The position numbers and the translations under genes are program-made. Source: Pricia antarctica (GTDB lineage: Bacteria > Bacteroidota > Bacteroidia > Flavobacteriales > Flavobacteriaceae). Taken from it: a DNA stretch of 60,494 bases. Location of the stretch: positions 1-60,494 of the forward strand of contig NZ_FNAO01000012.1 of NCBI RefSeq assembly GCF_900101815.1, read 5' to 3'. The notes below the pieces were generated by a model. That model was not told where the DNA came from and ran no database searches. It worked only from the letters and a program-made list of their open reading frames with translations. Below are positions 575 through 10,907 of this stretch, one piece after another (position 1 is the first letter of the stretch; every line of letters starts with the position of its first letter).

Positions 575-1231
575 TCAATGAATTAGATGTCTCTTAATTA
601 ATGGCGTAGGGTCTGAATTAGGATTCAACCAATTTACCCTACTAGGATGGGTTGTTAAAATTACGGTCAAACCCTGCGTGTTCTTATAGATATTAGTTTG
701 CCATTTCCTTTTATTGTTTTCCGTAAAAGTGTCAATCAAATCTGAGGCGTTTAACTTAGAACGAACAAAGCCCCCTACTCTCTTACCAAAACAAATTATG
801 TTTTTTACTTCCAAGGCATCTATCACCTTTTCATGGAACGGCCAACACAAACCCGCTAAATCGTTGAAATCTTCTGCAATATCTCTTTCCAATCTAGAAC
901 GCTGAAATATCATATTACTGGCAGGGGTCAGTTGCGGTTCTAACCCTAAAGAATTGAGAAGATGCACGACCCTTCTTTGATGAGGAGATTCTCCTGCATT
1001 CTTACTGGTCCAAACCTCATCAGCATACTCGGACCAAAACTCTTTACCTCCAATTTTTACCGTATGCGATTTTATTGTTTGATCAAGGTTGTCTTCCAAC
1101 TTACCGCCTGGGTTAATCCCTAATAAGTAAACTGGCTTTTTCCCTTCAAATGCCTTCGAACCTGAATAAAATACGGCGCCGTTTACATCCCATAATTTTT
1201 GAGGTATTGCTGCAAGAAGTTCTTTATTCAT
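575..1231 (-). CDS. Uracil-DNA-glycosylase-superfamily protein
   Basis: A 218-residue protein with two hallmarks of the UDG superfamily. Motif 1 (LLGINPGG, about residues 35-42) resembles the GINPG/GMNPG motif of Mug/TDG/SMUG enzymes and includes the catalytic Asn. A late motif (THPSRVNW, about residues 194-201) resembles the HPS loop that enters the DNA minor groove. Such enzymes cut the N-glycosidic bond of uracil or related bases. It starts 10 bp after the hsdR stop, so it is the last gene of the restriction operon. This suggests a role in DNA quality control or in attacking modified phage DNA, but the substrate cannot be read from sequence. The superfamily is fairly sure, the exact family is not. 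Confidence 0.7.
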   Translation of the reverse strand: MNKELLAAIPQKLWDVNGAVFYSGSKAFEGKKPVYLLGINPGGKLEDNLDQTIKSHTVKIGGKEFWSEYADEVWTSKNAGESPHQRRVVHLLNSLGLEPQLTPASNMIFQRSRLERDIAEDFNDLAGLCWPFHEKVIDALEVKNIICFGKRVGGFVRSKLNASDLIDTFTENNKRKWQTNIYKNTQGLTVILTTHPSRVNWLNPNSDPTPLIKRHLIH

Positions 1232-1241
1232 AGTACTTACT

Positions 1242-4079
1242 TTATCCCATACCCTCTATAAAAGTTTCAATGAACCCCTTTATTTTAGCCAGTACACGCT
1301 CTGATGAGGTTGCACGTTCCCGTAGGCTTGGTCGTTCCTTCATTACGGCTATGACTTCATCTCTTAAAGGTTCCTTTTGGGTAAATAAGTAATTACTGAT
1401 GGTATCTATCAAACGCTTGTTGTCCAAGTTTTCTTCTTGGCTGAGGTTTTTGATCGCCTTCTTTTTTTCGTTGGTCCAGAAACTATCGAATTCATCCGCG
1501 ACTAAATCCGAATCCCTGATCAGCGGTAAGTTTTCCTCAATGAATCGCTCTATAAGCTCTTTTTTACTTCTAAGCTGTGCCTCCGAGGATAGCATGTCTG
1601 AAATTGCTTTGCGTTGCTGTTCCTGTTCCTTCGGTTGTGACTCGTATAGCTTTGCCAAAAGGGTGAGGATATAGGCTACATTGACCTCATCCCTGCGTAT
1701 CAGTTCCAATTCAAAATCAATGTCATCTAATATGGACACTTTTTCTTTTTGAGTCTCCGATCGTATGGTGTCATAAAGGTCTAGGTACTTGCTTTTATAA
1801 TTTTCAAATGTTTGCTCGTCCATCCCCAGATCTTCATGACTGAACTCGGTAAAGGTGTTTAGGACGTTCTTGACCCGCATCAGTTGCCTGAACGCTTTTA
1901 CGAACTCCAACTCCTCTTCCTCAGAAATCAGGTCGTTAACGCTATCGAAAGTAGGTGCTATCTCCAAAACCTTTTCCACCGCTTCATTGAAATCTTCGAT
2001 ATAATCCTCGTAGGGCTGAATAATTATTTCTTCTATGGCATCCTTGTTCGAAAACAAGGTAATCGCCTCATCGGTAGCCTCCTTTAGGTTTCTAAAGGCT
2101 ACAACATTGCCCTGAGACTTCACCTCGTCCAAAATCCTGTTCGTACGGGAGTATGCTTGAATTAGGCCATGATGCTTTAGGTTCTTATCTACGTAAATGG
2201 TATTTAGCAATTTACTATCAAAACCAGTCAAGAACATGTTCACCACCAAGAGCACATCTACTTGCTTGTTTTTAACCCGTTTACCAATATCCTTGTAATA
2301 CCCGTAAAATTCGTTGGTGGAATAGTTGGTCCGAAACATGGCATTGTAATTATCAATGAAATCGTCCAGCTTTTCCCTTGTGTGTTTGGTGTCATATTGC
2401 AGAACTGGCTCACCTACCCTAAAATCTTCATAATCCTCATCTGGTATGAAGCCCGTGGCATCCTCATCCAATTGGTTGGCTTGGTAAGAAAATATTGTCG
2501 CCACCCTTAGATCATGCAAGCCTTCTTCCTTTTTTCTTTGTAAAATCTCGTAATATTTGATGAGTGTCTTTACGTTCTGCACACAGAAAATGGCGGTAAA
2601 CTTTTTGCTGTGGGTTTTTCTATTATGGTTCTTTATAATGAAGTCAGCATTGTTTTCAAGACGTTCTGGGGCTTCCATTACCTCAGCGGTATTGATATCC
2701 TCCACATTTAGGTCAACCACATCCTCTTTGAGCTTTACGGTGCTCATGTACTCAATGGAGAACTTTAAGACGTTCCTATCCCTAATGGCATCCGTAATCA
2801 CGTATTTATGCAAACATTCTTCAAATAGGTCTTTGGTGGTGCGTTTACCCAAGGCGTTCTTCACCGAATTATCTGCAAATATGGGTGTGCCCGTAAACCC
2901 GAACATCTGGCTATTTTCAAAAAATGCTTTTATTCTGTTGTGGGTCTCCCCGAACTGGCTACGGTGGCACTCATCAAAAATGAAGACAACCTTTTTTTCT
3001 TTCAAACCCTCCATCTTATTAAGATGTTTGGGGTTCACAATGGCCGTATTCAGTTTCTGGATGGTGGTTACTATAAGCTTGGTATCGTTACTTAATTGCT
3101 TTACCAAAGCTGAGGTATTATTGGTAGCATCTATACTACCCTCGCTAAAGCTGTTGAACTCCCTGATGGTCTGATAATCCAAATCTTTACGGTCAACTAC
3201 AAATACAACCTTATGTACCCCATTAAGATTTGTAAGAATTTGGGCTGTTTTAAAGGATGTAAGCGTTTTGCCCGATCCCGTGGTGTGCCAGATGTACCCA
3301 AACTTGGAACTGGTCTTTACACGCTCTACAATTGTCTCGGTCGCATAATACTGGTAAGGTCTCAACACCATGAGAATGTTGGCCGTATTCAGCACTACAT
3401 ATTTGGTAATCATTTTGGATAGATGGCAAGGTTCCAAAAATGTATTCGAGAAATCCCTCAACTGGGTAATAATCATATTGTCCTCTGATGCCCAAAAGAA
3501 AGTCTGTTTAAAGGACCTTGCTTTTACAGGATTGTTCGCGAAGTACTTAGTGTTTACCCCGTTACTGATTACGAAAAGCTGTATATACTGAAACAAACCT
3601 CTACCAGAGCCAAAGGAATGCCGTTCGTAACGATTTATCTGATTGAAGGCCTCCTTCATTTCCAGACCCCGTTTCTTTAGCTCTATCTGGACTAATGGCA
3701 AGCCGTTGATCAAGATAGTTACGTCATAGCGGTTTTTATAAGACCCCTCCATGTTTATTTGGTGGGTAACTTGGTATTGGTTCTTGCACCAATGCACCTG
3801 ATCAATTAGCTCTATATAACCTGTATCGCCATTATCTTTGGCATAGGTGATTCTATCCCGTAATGTTTTGGCCTTTTCATAGATATTGCCTTTAGAGAGG
3901 ACATTCAGAATTTGTTTAAACTCGCTTTCTGAATATGTGGCTTTATTGTGCTTTTCGAGTTTGTTTTTTAGATTTTTGATAAGGGCCGCCTCATCCTTAA
4001 TGACCACTTTTTTATACCCAAGTTCCTTTAATTGGTTGACTAGATTTTCTTCTAAGATATACTCTGGTTGTGTGGTCAT
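1242..4079 (-). CDS. hsdR: Type I restriction enzyme, R (restriction/translocase) subunit
   Basis: 945 residues, normal for HsdR. The N-terminal nuclease domain shows a PD-(D/E)xK pattern: Asp in NRYDVTIL and the ELK of VQIELKKRG, about residues 119-134. A superfamily-2 helicase core follows, with Walker A (TTGSGKT, about residue 265), DECH in VFIFDECHRSQ and the GFTGTP motif. A helical C-terminal region binds the rest of the complex. The enzyme translocates DNA with ATP and cuts far from the unmethylated site, together with HsdM and HsdS encoded upstream. Its ATG overlaps the stop of the preceding pentapeptide gene by one base, indicating translational coupling. No frameshift is seen, so it should be active. 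Confidence 0.95.
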   Translation of the reverse strand: MTTQPEYILEENLVNQLKELGYKKVVIKDEAALIKNLKNKLEKHNKATYSESEFKQILNVLSKGNIYEKAKTLRDRITYAKDNGDTGYIELIDQVHWCKNQYQVTHQINMEGSYKNRYDVTILINGLPLVQIELKKRGLEMKEAFNQINRYERHSFGSGRGLFQYIQLFVISNGVNTKYFANNPVKARSFKQTFFWASEDNMIITQLRDFSNTFLEPCHLSKMITKYVVLNTANILMVLRPYQYYATETIVERVKTSSKFGYIWHTTGSGKTLTSFKTAQILTNLNGVHKVVFVVDRKDLDYQTIREFNSFSEGSIDATNNTSALVKQLSNDTKLIVTTIQKLNTAIVNPKHLNKMEGLKEKKVVFIFDECHRSQFGETHNRIKAFFENSQMFGFTGTPIFADNSVKNALGKRTTKDLFEECLHKYVITDAIRDRNVLKFSIEYMSTVKLKEDVVDLNVEDINTAEVMEAPERLENNADFIIKNHNRKTHSKKFTAIFCVQNVKTLIKYYEILQRKKEEGLHDLRVATIFSYQANQLDEDATGFIPDEDYEDFRVGEPVLQYDTKHTREKLDDFIDNYNAMFRTNYSTNEFYGYYKDIGKRVKNKQVDVLLVVNMFLTGFDSKLLNTIYVDKNLKHHGLIQAYSRTNRILDEVKSQGNVVAFRNLKEATDEAITLFSNKDAIEEIIIQPYEDYIEDFNEAVEKVLEIAPTFDSVNDLISEEEELEFVKAFRQLMRVKNVLNTFTEFSHEDLGMDEQTFENYKSKYLDLYDTIRSETQKEKVSILDDIDFELELIRRDEVNVAYILTLLAKLYESQPKEQEQQRKAISDMLSSEAQLRSKKELIERFIEENLPLIRDSDLVADEFDSFWTNEKKKAIKNLSQEENLDNKRLIDTISNYLFTQKEPLRDEVIAVMKERPSLRERATSSERVLAKIKGFIETFIEGMG

Positions 4080-5428
4080 TATCTAAATTTTCGGAAAGCT
4101 TGAACAATTTGGAAAAGCCCATAGCTGACAAAAATACGTTGGGCAAAATTGAAAATTTGAAAAAAACCAGATGGTGCCAAGCTCGTTTCAATAAAATCAG
4201 ATTTATGCGTTGGATCTAGGGATATAAAATAGTACTTAACCACTTCTTCAAAAACCTGCCAATCAAAATCACAGTTTGTACACAAAATCACATATTCCTC
4301 TGTGAGTGTAAGCATAATATAAAAAATAATAGAACTACCTAAAAAGGTGAAAACAATACCTCTCAAAAATGATGTGCCATAAATATTCGACAATCCATTT
4401 AACCCCAAAATGAATCTATTAACCAAAAACTTAAAGGCTCCTTTACTCTTATAAAATTCTTTCAAGGTTTTCTTTTCAAATTTTCGAACCTCCAAACCCT
4501 GAACTATATCGTTATTTTCCTTATATAGCTTACCAAGAATTTTAAAGGTCTCAATTTTATTTCGGAAAGGAATGTGGCCCTCCCTGCGTACCGCACATTG
4601 ATATACATCCGCATTTTCATTCTTATAGAAATCTTTAATAACAGAAATTTTACTGTCTCCGTTTTTTTCATCAGGATAAAGAAGGCTATGGAATTTTTTT
4701 GCCAAAGCGTTATCCTCTTTATTTTTCAATTCCTCCTCCAACGTTTTGAATCCTTTCCATTTTTCAAATTCAATATCATTGGCCGTAATTTTTCCTTGGA
4801 TATATGCCAGTGATAAATCTAGTCCCTTTTTAAATTTAGAACCACGGAGCGTCAGGACATTTTCTATTAGCGTATAGGTGAGAAGAGCATTTCCTTGGAA
4901 AATAATATCAGAGAGAATAGCCGTTTTATGAAACTTTGTATTTAAAAAAATTACATTCTCCGCAAACGTGCAATTCCAGAAACTGACATATTCCTTAAAT
5001 GAGGTATTGTAAAAGTTGGTCTTGCCAAAAAAATGACATTTCTGGAATGAAGCTTTTTCATTAAATTCGGTATTTTCTAAGGAAAATTCTTTTGTAAATT
5101 TTGTATCATCCCTATCTGAAATTGTACCCTCATTTGAAACAGGGCCAAATTCTACCTTTTTATTAAATTCTACATTTTTTACCTGAACTTTTTCCTTAAA
5201 AAGGCAATTCTCAAATTTTATTTCATTCGAAATGGATAATTTAGTCTCTGAATCTCCTTCAAGAATAAATTCTTCCTCAAATTCACAATGTGTGAAATGT
5301 ATATCTCGCTTTAGTAGCTTTAAATTTAATTTGCCTATTATAGTCCTATTTTTAAATGACAGTAATGTTCTATCAGGAGAAGTAATAGCAACGTCCAAAT
5401 CATGAACTGTAAGCGTTTTTTTTTTCAT
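4079..5428 (-). CDS. Pentapeptide-repeat protein with C-terminal membrane segments, inside the RM operon
   Basis: A 449-residue protein not found in ordinary hsd operons. Residues about 40-210 carry imperfect pentapeptide-type repeats with F or L at the centre every five residues (for example FENCLF, FQKCHFFGKTNF, FWNCTFAENVIF), which build a right-handed beta-helix. A linker follows, with a segment starting IPFRNKIETFKILGKLYKEN. The C-terminal 100 residues hold a clear membrane helix (about 355-378, GIVFTFLGSSIIFYIMLTL) and a second hydrophobic segment near the end. The two bracket a short LDPTHK region, a layout like a two-helix channel whose selectivity filter is lost. It lies between hsdS and hsdR with 1-bp spacing on both sides, so it is co-translated. 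Its function is unknown; a membrane effector or an anchor for the RM complex are inferences. Confidence 0.75.
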   Translation of the reverse strand: MKKKTLTVHDLDVAITSPDRTLLSFKNRTIIGKLNLKLLKRDIHFTHCEFEEEFILEGDSETKLSISNEIKFENCLFKEKVQVKNVEFNKKVEFGPVSNEGTISDRDDTKFTKEFSLENTEFNEKASFQKCHFFGKTNFYNTSFKEYVSFWNCTFAENVIFLNTKFHKTAILSDIIFQGNALLTYTLIENVLTLRGSKFKKGLDLSLAYIQGKITANDIEFEKWKGFKTLEEELKNKEDNALAKKFHSLLYPDEKNGDSKISVIKDFYKNENADVYQCAVRREGHIPFRNKIETFKILGKLYKENNDIVQGLEVRKFEKKTLKEFYKSKGAFKFLVNRFILGLNGLSNIYGTSFLRGIVFTFLGSSIIFYIMLTLTEEYVILCTNCDFDWQVFEEVVKYYFISLDPTHKSDFIETSLAPSGFFQIFNFAQRIFVSYGLFQIVQAFRKFR

Positions 5429-8616: not shown

Positions 8617-9030
8617 CTATTTTAAATTTCTGAGTTGTCTTGCTATCTCCGTGGCTAATTGCACCACACCCATATTATTTGACTGTTTTTTCCTCGCCCA
8701 TTGGAGGGTCATACGCTCCCTACTTGTTTCCCTGACACGTTCTATGTCGGTTGCGGTATTACCTTCCTTAAAACGGCTGGAAATGCCTCCGATGATGAGG
8801 TTCTGCATAATGACCTTGTCATAGTTCGCTAAGGCAGCCTTACGCATAAGTTTTTGAAGCTTGCGGCTCTGAATACCTTTTCTAGGATTAAGACCAAACC
8901 TGACCTTATACTCCTGAGCATTTAGGCCATGCCTTTTGTTTACGTGCAATAATAGCTTATCGTAGGCTACGGCGCAGATTGCGCATATTGGTTGCCCTTT
9001 TTTATTGAATTGGTGTTCTAAATAGGTCAT
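8617..9030 (-). CDS. Ros/MucR-type zinc-finger transcription factor
   Basis: 137 residues. The N-terminal part contains CAIC-x9-H-VNKR-H, matching the C-x2-C-x9-H-x4-H prokaryotic zinc finger of the Ros/MucR family, followed by the family's HGLNAQEYKVRFGL stretch. The rest is basic and helical (ARKKQSNN near the end). Ros/MucR proteins are DNA-binding, mainly repressors. In Bacteroidota similar proteins often sit on mobile or defence islands. It lies between the hsd operon and a divergent ATPase gene, so it could regulate either. A 12-bp perfect palindrome in the 395-bp divergent region is a candidate site. Confidence 0.72.
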   Translation of the reverse strand: MTYLEHQFNKKGQPICAICAVAYDKLLLHVNKRHGLNAQEYKVRFGLNPRKGIQSRKLQKLMRKAALANYDKVIMQNLIIGGISSRFKEGNTATDIERVRETSRERMTLQWARKKQSNNMGVVQLATEIARQLRNLK

Positions 9031-9425: not shown

Positions 9426-10907
9426 ATGAACGCATTAACAGCATTATTACAAACTGATTTTGGTAATCCAGATGGATTATACGATTCTAATTTGGAAAAT
9501 TACTTTTTAGACCAAGGATATTGGAACGAAATAGTTGAAGAAAAAACCTTTTTCATAATTGGAAGAAAAGGTACGGGTAAATCAGCTATTTATAATTGGA
9601 TTTATAATAGACAATTTGAAAAAGCAATTCTAATCAGCAATTTATCATTTAGAAGTTTTCCATTTGAAAAATTACTGCGATTGTCTGACGACGATTTTAC
9701 AAGACCAAATCAATATCAAAGTATTTGGAAATACATTATTTTAAGTGAGTTTGCTAAACAAATCGTGCTCGACCAACAGTATGAACCTAATACAGAAGTT
9801 TATAAAGAATTGGTTGAATTTGTAAATGAACGATTCGGCAAAAATTTGAAAGATTTACATTCTAAAATCACAACCCACACAAAAAAGACGGAATTTGGAT
9901 TACAATATAAAGGCATCGGACCTAAAAGTTCAAGTGAATCCACATTAAAAATTGACGATGGATTAGATAATATCTCTGAAATAAATATAAGATTAGAGTT
10001 TTTAGTATTGGAAAATATTGAAATTAGCAAAAGACCATATCTAATTCAATTCGACCAACTTGATGACAATTACACTTTGTATATTGATAACAAAAAATAC
10101 TTTGAATCCTTGATAAGTTTATTCAAAGTAATTTATGCTTTAAACTCAACTATATCGCCTATTTCACCACAAACAAAAGTTTTAGGCTACTTGCGTTCAG
10201 ATATTTTTTATCATTTCAGTAGTCACGACCCAGATAGTGCAAAATTTGATTATCACACTTATCATATAAATTGGGCAATAACAAATCGGACAGATTGGAA
10301 CAATCCGCCGTTATTACAATTAATTAATGCCCGCATACAAAATAGCGTCGAAGAATTAGATGGAGACAAATCATTTTTCTACATATTTAATAGAAATTTT
10401 ATTAAGCTTACGGAAAATGGTAAACCGATTGAGCCATTTAGATATATAATTCATCGAACCTTTCATAGGCCAAGGGATTTGGTCCAATTTTGTATTAAGG
10501 TTCAAGAGCAAGCCAAAGCCTCTAAAAAATTAGATTATGAGACCTTTAACGCAGCTGAAAAAGAATATTCTTCATGGTTAATTGATGAACTTAAAAATGA
10601 GATTGCACCAGTAATACCAAACACGAACACATTATTTACACTTTTACGAACAATTGGAACAAAACCTTTCGCTGCTTCAGCGTTTAAGACTAAATTCTTT
10701 CAAAGTGGAAATAGAAACTTAAATAAAAGTCCAGAGGCATTATTAAGATATTTATACGAATTAGGTATTATTCAAAATGTAAATTTTACAAAATCTAGGA
10801 TGGAACTATATTCCATAATTAGAAATGAAAAATCCAACTATGAGCCAAGAATGAAAGCTGAATTACATTCGGGATTAATTAAGGGATTGCACACATATCG
10901 CGAATAA
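9426..10907 (+). CDS. P-loop ATPase of the Sll1717-like type
   Basis: 493 residues. A Walker A motif, GRKGTGKSA (about residues 46-54), lies near the N-terminus. A Walker B-like stretch with paired acids (LIQFDQLDDN) lies near residue 205. The overall layout resembles the stand-alone P-loop ATPases called Sll1717 family, whose role is poorly known but which often sit beside restriction systems. A basic helical C-terminus (about 385-493) may be a winged-helix or effector part. The gene is clearly more AT-rich than the backbone genes, consistent with transfer. It is monocistronic and ends at a hairpin terminator. A defence role is inferred from context only. Confidence 0.65.
   Translation: MNALTALLQTDFGNPDGLYDSNLENYFLDQGYWNEIVEEKTFFIIGRKGTGKSAIYNWIYNRQFEKAILISNLSFRSFPFEKLLRLSDDDFTRPNQYQSIWKYIILSEFAKQIVLDQQYEPNTEVYKELVEFVNERFGKNLKDLHSKITTHTKKTEFGLQYKGIGPKSSSESTLKIDDGLDNISEINIRLEFLVLENIEISKRPYLIQFDQLDDNYTLYIDNKKYFESLISLFKVIYALNSTISPISPQTKVLGYLRSDIFYHFSSHDPDSAKFDYHTYHINWAITNRTDWNNPPLLQLINARIQNSVEELDGDKSFFYIFNRNFIKLTENGKPIEPFRYIIHRTFHRPRDLVQFCIKVQEQAKASKKLDYETFNAAEKEYSSWLIDELKNEIAPVIPNTNTLFTLLRTIGTKPFAASAFKTKFFQSGNRNLNKSPEALLRYLYELGIIQNVNFTKSRMELYSIIRNEKSNYEPRMKAELHSGLIKGLHTYRE

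Follow-up and report, generated by a model that had tools for sequence, protein, structure and literature searches.

What is a membrane protein built on pentapeptide repeats doing inside a type I restriction–modification (RM) operon? The question is raised by contig NZ_FNAO01000012.1 of Pricia antarctica (assembly GCF_900101815.1), of which we analyzed positions 1 to 60,494 (60,494 nucleotides, hereafter the window). Here hsdM, hsdS, the gene in question (the cargo gene) and hsdR all lie on the minus strand, almost without intergenic space (Table 1). An earlier note, made from the letters alone, had placed the cargo gene exactly between hsdS and hsdR and described its product as joining pentapeptide repeats to a C-terminal membrane part, and we confirmed both points. 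The 1-bp spacing that it gave for both sides holds on the hsdS side, where one base separates the hsdS stop codon (5430) from the cargo ATG (5428), but not on the hsdR side, where the cargo stop codon overlaps the hsdR ATG by one base (4079) and there is no gap. The gene thus has the arrangement of a type I RM cargo gene, inside the hsd operon, on the same strand and tightly spaced. The window translations show NPPF in HsdM and GSGKT and DECH in HsdR, which we take to be diagnostic motifs, and the operon therefore looks intact. Our answer, which falls a little short of what we would call probable, is that the product of the cargo gene is a portable back-up effector that acts at the membrane and whose gene rides in an hsdS–hsdR slot; we do not read it as an RM subunit.

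The slot itself can be observed directly. Among 199 genomes of the window's family we located 43 hsdR places, 25 of which are of the window type (at least 56% identical). The gap between the specificity (S) and restriction (R) genes holds at least one same-strand open reading frame (ORF) of at least 60 amino acids in 22 of these 25 operons; for the gap between the methyltransferase (M) and S genes the count is 2 of 24 (in L151 the contig ends in hsdS). Occupants, assigned by Pfam on a representative and by BLAST clustering, include the pentapeptide gene in 4 of the 25 operons (the window, L022, L023 and L029) and otherwise DUF4268/NucS_C, Abi_2 (Abi_2/AbiD), Fic, RhuM-Fic, PDDEXK_4, KAP NTPase, DUF3800, GIY-YIG and HTH proteins, a DUF2971 match below its curated cut-off and, in the wider locus set, a TIR protein (SpbK-like). 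Three operons (L145, L149 and L162) have nothing in the gap, and two have a pentapeptide gene after hsdR, as an interrupted copy (L024) or as a shorter protein without the membrane part (L145). Judged by its sequence, L145 is a natural empty site: its R and M proteins are each 84% identical to those of the window, its HsdS is 33% identical with the same FKKGLLQQMF tail, and its hsdR, whose ATG is homologous to that of the window, begins 13 bp past the hsdS stop codon with no cargo between. The S–R gap behaves as a slot whose cargo genes are interchangeable and in many cases toxin-like. Published accounts describe similar extra genes: Makarova et al. 2012 (PMC3506569) listed type I and III systems with HEPN, Sir2, ParB or REase genes, predicted to be toxin-like, and likeness to this immunity–suicide coupling lies in the presence of such genes in RM systems; the terms membrane and pentapeptide are absent from the text of that paper. 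The earlier note had called the arrangement unusual, which is fair for the kind of protein but not for the slot, as prrC sits in a type IC operon (PMC3874165).

The order hsdM–hsdS–pentapeptide–hsdR is conserved in other genomes, so that an order confined to this one, which the earlier note had named as refuting its reading, was not the outcome. The window protein alone, searched against genome contigs, gave 41 stretches that fit the pattern, 0 of which were confirmed. In a first scan, 13 of the 199 family genomes had a match (E up to 0.001), which in some cases covered the repeats alone; judged by the flanks, the gene belongs to a type I operon in G073, G078, G174, G002 and G051, an interrupted copy follows hsdR of such an operon in G033, and no type I operon was seen at some flanks, for example in G016 and G156. 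A genome-wide scan with a seven-member alignment then yielded 74 loci, with at least four genomes the same as in the first scan; its pattern, [YF]G[IYL][YF]Q[TIL][IV]QA, fixes G437, Q440, Q443 and A444 in the loci found. A same-strand type I operon is present at 24 of the 74 loci, and the cargo lies between hsdS and hsdR in 19, being the next ORF after hsdS in 16 of those at −8 to +18 bp. Four loci (L043, L052, L053 and L068) have the strict order without a further ORF of at least 60 amino acids, and the five other RM-linked loci have other layouts (R-M-S in L051 and L057, R-S-M in L069; also L082 and L084). L023 is an additional type I operon with a pentapeptide gene outside these 24. A rough estimate from the 43 strong hsdR matches, found across 199 genomes of ~3.5 Mb, puts ~0.1% of a genome within 10 kb of hsdR, so that 24 of 74 is not chance; the estimate counts only this kind of HsdR, and the query alignment of the scan was mostly RM-linked.

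Beyond the family, 21 of 395 genomes had matches in a class-wide scan, the window genome among them, and all five matches below E 1e-100 were RM-linked. We fetched 20 further loci (16 from the class-wide scan and 4 from another search). Three of them, from other families, show M-S-pentapeptide-R (L181 and L182) or M-Fic-S-pentapeptide-R (L183); the remaining 17 show no such operon, and L189 has an HsdM-like ORF four genes off. A plasmid search returned one weak match, to the repeat region only (Halorussus), and a phage search returned no relatives at E 1e-5. In these searches the family was found almost solely in Bacteroidota. As a separate observation, a recurrent small ORF (66–88 amino acids, NTIWAxKFEFHDxE) adjoins the pentapeptide gene in three RM operons (Table 1).

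Relatives also recur beside unrelated defense genes. With RM included, 35 of the 74 loci have a defense partner. A relative adjoins pAgo-SIR2 at L070 (11 bp; L073 is a near-copy), LmuA to LmuB of Lamassu at L099 (12 bp), OloA-OloB of Olokun at L066 (75 bp), DRT2 at L062 (157 bp) and Shedu SduA at L076 (165 bp), the last not counted as RM-linked because its RM genes are on the opposite strand. HipA or HipA_2 lies beside a relative at L044, L054 and, by custom profile, L080, as does Fic at L075 and, by custom profile or clustering, L078 and L198. The protein beside DRT2 is itself split (L062:4700-5862) into a 274-residue repeat part and a 113-residue membrane part whose ORFs overlap by 4 bp, either a natural two-gene version or a frameshift.

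One locus shows the gene persisting where its RM operon has decayed. In L034, from a single Winogradskyella metagenome-assembled genome, what remains of hsdM is a fragment that contains three stops and two frame changes and has lost 41 residues to a deletion, hsdS survives only in its last residues, and no hsdR was found within the 21-kb locus. The pentapeptide gene starts as far from the hsdS tail as it usually does and runs for 480 codons without a stop, and its product keeps the seven conserved C-terminal residues described below. Neutral decay of the kind seen in hsdM would be expected to have broken this gene; it was therefore probably retained without its RM enzyme. Such retention speaks against two ideas, that the RM enzyme strictly represses the protein and that the protein serves solely as an RM subunit or tether. 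No other RM scar of this kind was found among 50 non-RM loci. We note in passing that the gene is followed, 8 bp on, by one for a 256-residue protein with several hydrophobic stretches and no Pfam match (L034:11182-11952).

The protein has a recognizable architecture. Pfam finds only PF13576 (Pentapeptide_3) in the window protein (E 2.5e-14, residues 118–163), and this domain occurs in 39 of 39 members of our largest alignment (A3), placing the family among the pentapeptide repeat proteins; alignment A1 comprises 7 members found without the motif pattern, and A2 comprises 25, the 25-member set combining the window protein with 24 RM-linked relatives. In the predicted core, 14 of 14 positions spaced alternately by 5 and 6 residues are hydrophobic (0/20000 shuffles as good), in a test picked after the spacing of phenylalanines had been seen; PF13576 is independent support for the repeats. 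A plain 5-residue register was not significant in the window protein (9768/10000 shuffles as good). Profile comparison gave a weak match to the McbG-like PDB chains 2xt4 and 2xt2 (E 0.004–0.005); a single-sequence PDB search with the window protein gave no match, nor did PADLOC and NCBIfam models match it. DNA mimics such as Qnr and MfpA have an acidic, DNA-like β-helix surface. The net charge of the repeat region here is +1 in the window protein and averages +2.2 over the 25 members (range −12 to +8, L053 being the most acidic at −12), which is neutral to slightly basic.

A linker with a conserved NKRETxRI-like stretch connects the repeats to a strongly hydrophobic segment, present in the window protein (Kyte–Doolittle hydropathy 2.04) and in 24 of 24 RM-linked relatives (1.51–2.53 across the 25 members). 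The segment that follows it is semi-hydrophobic (0.24–1.53), and the window protein ends in QAFRKFR. Support is thus good for one membrane segment, and a second may exist, which makes two helices plausible; of the membrane helices claimed in the earlier note, at least one is predicted by hydropathy, so that a topology devoid of them, the other outcome that it had named as refuting, did not arise. Matches to the Pfam families 2TM and SLATT_fungal were rejected as not significant (E above 0.2), and a crude hydropathy test gave a signal-like N terminus in 0 of 25 members, one being borderline. Seven residues near the C-terminus (G437, Q440, Q443, A444, F445, R446 and K447) are invariant in 7 of 7 A1 members and likewise in the 25 members of A2 and the 39 of A3, most of which were found by the pattern. 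Averaged over the columns of A2, the most common residue has a frequency of 0.70 in residues 419–449, 0.58 in 121–225, 0.50 in 281–330 and 346–380, and 0.17–0.29 in 1–120 and 226–280. The membrane segment and the C-terminus suggest action at the membrane, and the linker and the more variable N-terminus suggest a sensor or partner-binding part.

A defense role for the family is supported by these comparisons because of the shared slot and the defense partners. Among the three routes that the earlier note had offered, the back-up membrane effector fares best, the slot being common to toxin-like cargo and the relatives recurring beside unrelated defense systems; its two other routes, a membrane tether and a DNA mimic, are disfavored, as set out below. 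As such an effector, the protein could be held inactive by its cytosolic β-helix and helical linker, which would also receive the signal; the C-terminal hydrophobic helix and the conserved QAFRK segment would then oligomerize and open or damage the inner membrane, so that an infected cell would be stopped when restriction falls short. We infer membrane insertion and topology, pore formation, a trigger and toxicity from these features. A broader and more tentative proposal is that the proteins form an unnamed portable membrane effector family, mostly of Bacteroidota, with a pentapeptide sensor and a GYGIYQTIQAFRKY-like C-terminus, which may plug into at least six defense systems (type I RM, pAgo-SIR2, Lamassu, Olokun, DRT2 and Shedu). 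Within type I RM it would be, to our knowledge, the first membrane-acting counterpart of PrrC. The same proposal holds that S and the effector diversify while M and R stay nearly fixed.

No described family appears to cover these proteins: we found none in the titles and abstract openings of open-licence literature, among the papers listed. Partial parallels exist. Nuclease–protease pairs resemble them in that one module has been acquired by unrelated systems, including Lamassu and DRT, but differ in that the nuclease gene lies beside a protease fused to a defense enzyme (PMC12799240); the terms membrane and restriction are absent from the text of that paper. Cap1 of type III CRISPR, which forms a two-helix membrane pore, couples a soluble sensor to a membrane helix pair, an architecture that the window protein may share; its sensor is CARF-like and its trigger cA4 (PMC12642688). 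HglK of Anabaena combines membrane helices with pentapeptide repeats in the reverse order, with four N-terminal membrane regions and C-terminal repeats, and has a heterocyst function (PMC8145042), a pentapeptide review from which the terms phage and restriction are absent. Pentapeptide repeats fused to Orc/CDC6 occur in defense neighborhoods (PMC10853773), and a pentapeptide gene broken by a type II RM operon (PMC5896346) is an unrelated case.

Several observations weigh against the effector reading. The second membrane segment is weakly hydrophobic, and no Pfam membrane or channel domain was recognized in the A3 members. The scan used a C-terminal motif pattern, which builds some of the conservation at that end into the 74 loci, although G437, Q440, Q443 and A444 were already common to the seven A1 members found without it; the query alignment of that scan was also mostly RM-linked. 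Pfam recognized nothing in six of 20 proteins from slots or operons (one outside the S–R gap), and most non-RM defense pairings rest on one locus. No recognized defense neighbor was found at 39 of the 74 loci, the neighbors of just 8 having been scanned (L034, L063, L067, L083, L090, L094, L095 and L101); at these they are mainly housekeeping families, and several more distant relatives adjoin housekeeping genes such as those for LysRS, LepA and LeuRS. A non-defense ancestral role is therefore possible.

The best-surviving alternative, which we nevertheless regard as unlikely, is a guard of the PrrC type, held silent by contact with HsdMSR and freed when a phage inhibits restriction, with the membrane as its target. 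The gene prrC lies exactly between the S and R genes, and EcoR124I is a type IC enzyme; the window HsdR carries EcoR124_C. As here, prrC is an extra gene in a type IC operon, that of EcoprrI, and PrrC acts when restriction is inhibited (PMC3874165, PMC12707154), having been sequestered in the complex (PMC3874165). PrrC differs in being an ABC-ATPase tRNA nuclease, whereas the window protein is a pentapeptide-repeat membrane protein without a recognized catalytic domain; with PF13576 only, it lacks the ABC ATPase and anticodon nuclease domain of PrrC/RloC. Some cargo may dock on the complex: the last 78–112 residues of two HEPN-like slot proteins (L036:8786-9844 and L024:13731-14867; a label from reading the sequence, Pfam having given no match) resemble the C-terminus of the window HsdR (pairwise E 3e-12 and 3e-8) and are a possible docking tail. 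No HsdR-like stretch was found in the pentapeptide protein.

Divergence was compared gene by gene within the operons of 19 loci, and the finding that the cargo diverges where R and M do not counts toward the effector reading. Between L035 and L056 the identities are 92% for R, 95% for M, 41% for S and 37% for the cargo, and between the window and L043 they are 83%, 87%, 34% and 30%; exceptions are L043/L046 (S 41%, cargo 89%) and L064/L068 (S 38%, cargo 70%). Thus, the cargo often, but not always, changes faster than M and R. In a Mantel test over the same 19 loci, pentapeptide-protein distances correlated with those of R (r 0.475, 0/5000) and M (0.383, 6/5000) and less with those of S (0.162, 203/5000), shared ancestry being included in all three correlations. 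These correlations favor a guard; the many relatives without an RM partner in the fetched flanks do not, and PrrC-like control by the RM enzyme, while possible by analogy, is weakened by the scar at L034.

Somewhat less likely again is a membrane exclusion factor, which would constitutively block phage DNA entry or membrane processes without killing, its ride with RM being co-inheritance. It would account for the membrane segment, for copies without RM neighbors and for persistence after RM loss, but alone it leaves the tight order with different partner systems unexplained.

Improbable, in our estimate, is a passenger without a defense role, kept by chance in a hotspot. One slot does hold integrase and transposase genes (L163), and many relatives lie beside housekeeping genes or unscanned neighbors. 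Yet at L034 the gene has stayed intact beside decayed RM genes, and RM linkage clusters in the trees although it has changed repeatedly. The first tree had 70 rows, the window plus those 69 of the 74 loci that have an ORF of at least 300 amino acids. Explaining the RM label there takes 9 changes, of which supported branches force at least 6, and the smallest supported group that includes the window counts 33 rows, 22 of them RM-linked. On a more careful tree of 43 hand-picked rows (the window, 39 of the 74 loci and L181–L183), whose counts describe that choice, the label needs at least 7 changes (gains or losses), and the window falls in a 29-row group with 25 RM-linked rows but without strong support. 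On both trees, 0/500 shuffles were as low.

More doubtful still is a tether that would anchor the type I enzyme at the membrane, at the point of phage DNA entry. A membrane segment joined to a repeat domain of the partner-binding kind, tightly coupled to S and R, would suit it; however, the slot holds other proteins or nothing in most of the 25 related operons, L145, whose R and M are 84% identical to those of the window, has no cargo between S and R, and relatives pair with non-RM systems or with none recognized. A DNA-mimic regulator of HsdR, acting as Qnr or MfpA does on gyrase, has the β-helix and the weak McbG-like match to commend it, but we rejected it as very improbable on the net charge given above, and it has no place for the membrane segment.

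Other genes near the operon are recorded here in their own right. Upstream of hsdM, a 137-residue protein (8617–9030, minus strand) with a ROS/MucR match just under the cut-off might regulate the operon. Close by lies a P-loop ATPase of the Sll1717 family (9426–10907, plus strand; NCBIfam E 1.6e-82) with a weak, sub-cut-off likeness to an anti-phage protein model. A 218-residue protein encoded 10 bp downstream of hsdR (575–1231, minus strand) has GINPG and HPS motifs, which we take to be glycosylase-like, and weakly resembles family-4 uracil-DNA glycosylases (NCBIfam E 0.0034; PDB 4zbx E 0.19); it matches 5 plasmid records in part, a search through the ORFs of other loci yielded no relative, and it is possibly a DNA-glycosylase defense gene.

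Table 1 Features of the window and of related loci; window positions unless a locus is given
Feature	Positions	Strand	Basis
hsdR, restriction subunit, 945 aa	1242..4079	-	Pfam HSDR_N, SWI2_SNF2, EcoR124_C; TIGR00348
Pentapeptide-repeat membrane protein gene (cargo), 449 aa	4079..5428	-	ORF, ATG start; homologue scans
Conserved C-terminal segment RIFVSYGLFQIVQAFRKFR, residues 431-449	4082..4138	-	Alignments A1, A2; possible amphipathic second membrane helix
Predicted transmembrane segment 1, residues 357-375	4304..4360	-	Hydropathy
Predicted pentapeptide beta-helix core, residues 122-194	4847..5065	-	Hydrophobic residues, alternating 5/6 spacing
hsdS, specificity subunit, 410 aa	5430..6662	-	PF01420, two stretches (Methylase_S)
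hsdM, methyltransferase subunit, 520 aa	6664..8226	-	TIGR00497 8.1e-139
Small ORF NTIWAxKFEFHDxE	L035:10023-10274, L049:9400-9666, L056:11265-11465		Beside pentapeptide gene

The usual reading of a type I operon stops at M, S and R; in the operons described here, the S–R gap is a place for interchangeable cargo. If the pentapeptide protein is an effector, a single family would allow the wiring of one membrane weapon to different sensors to be tested, and the PrrC paradigm would extend from tRNA cleavage to the membrane.

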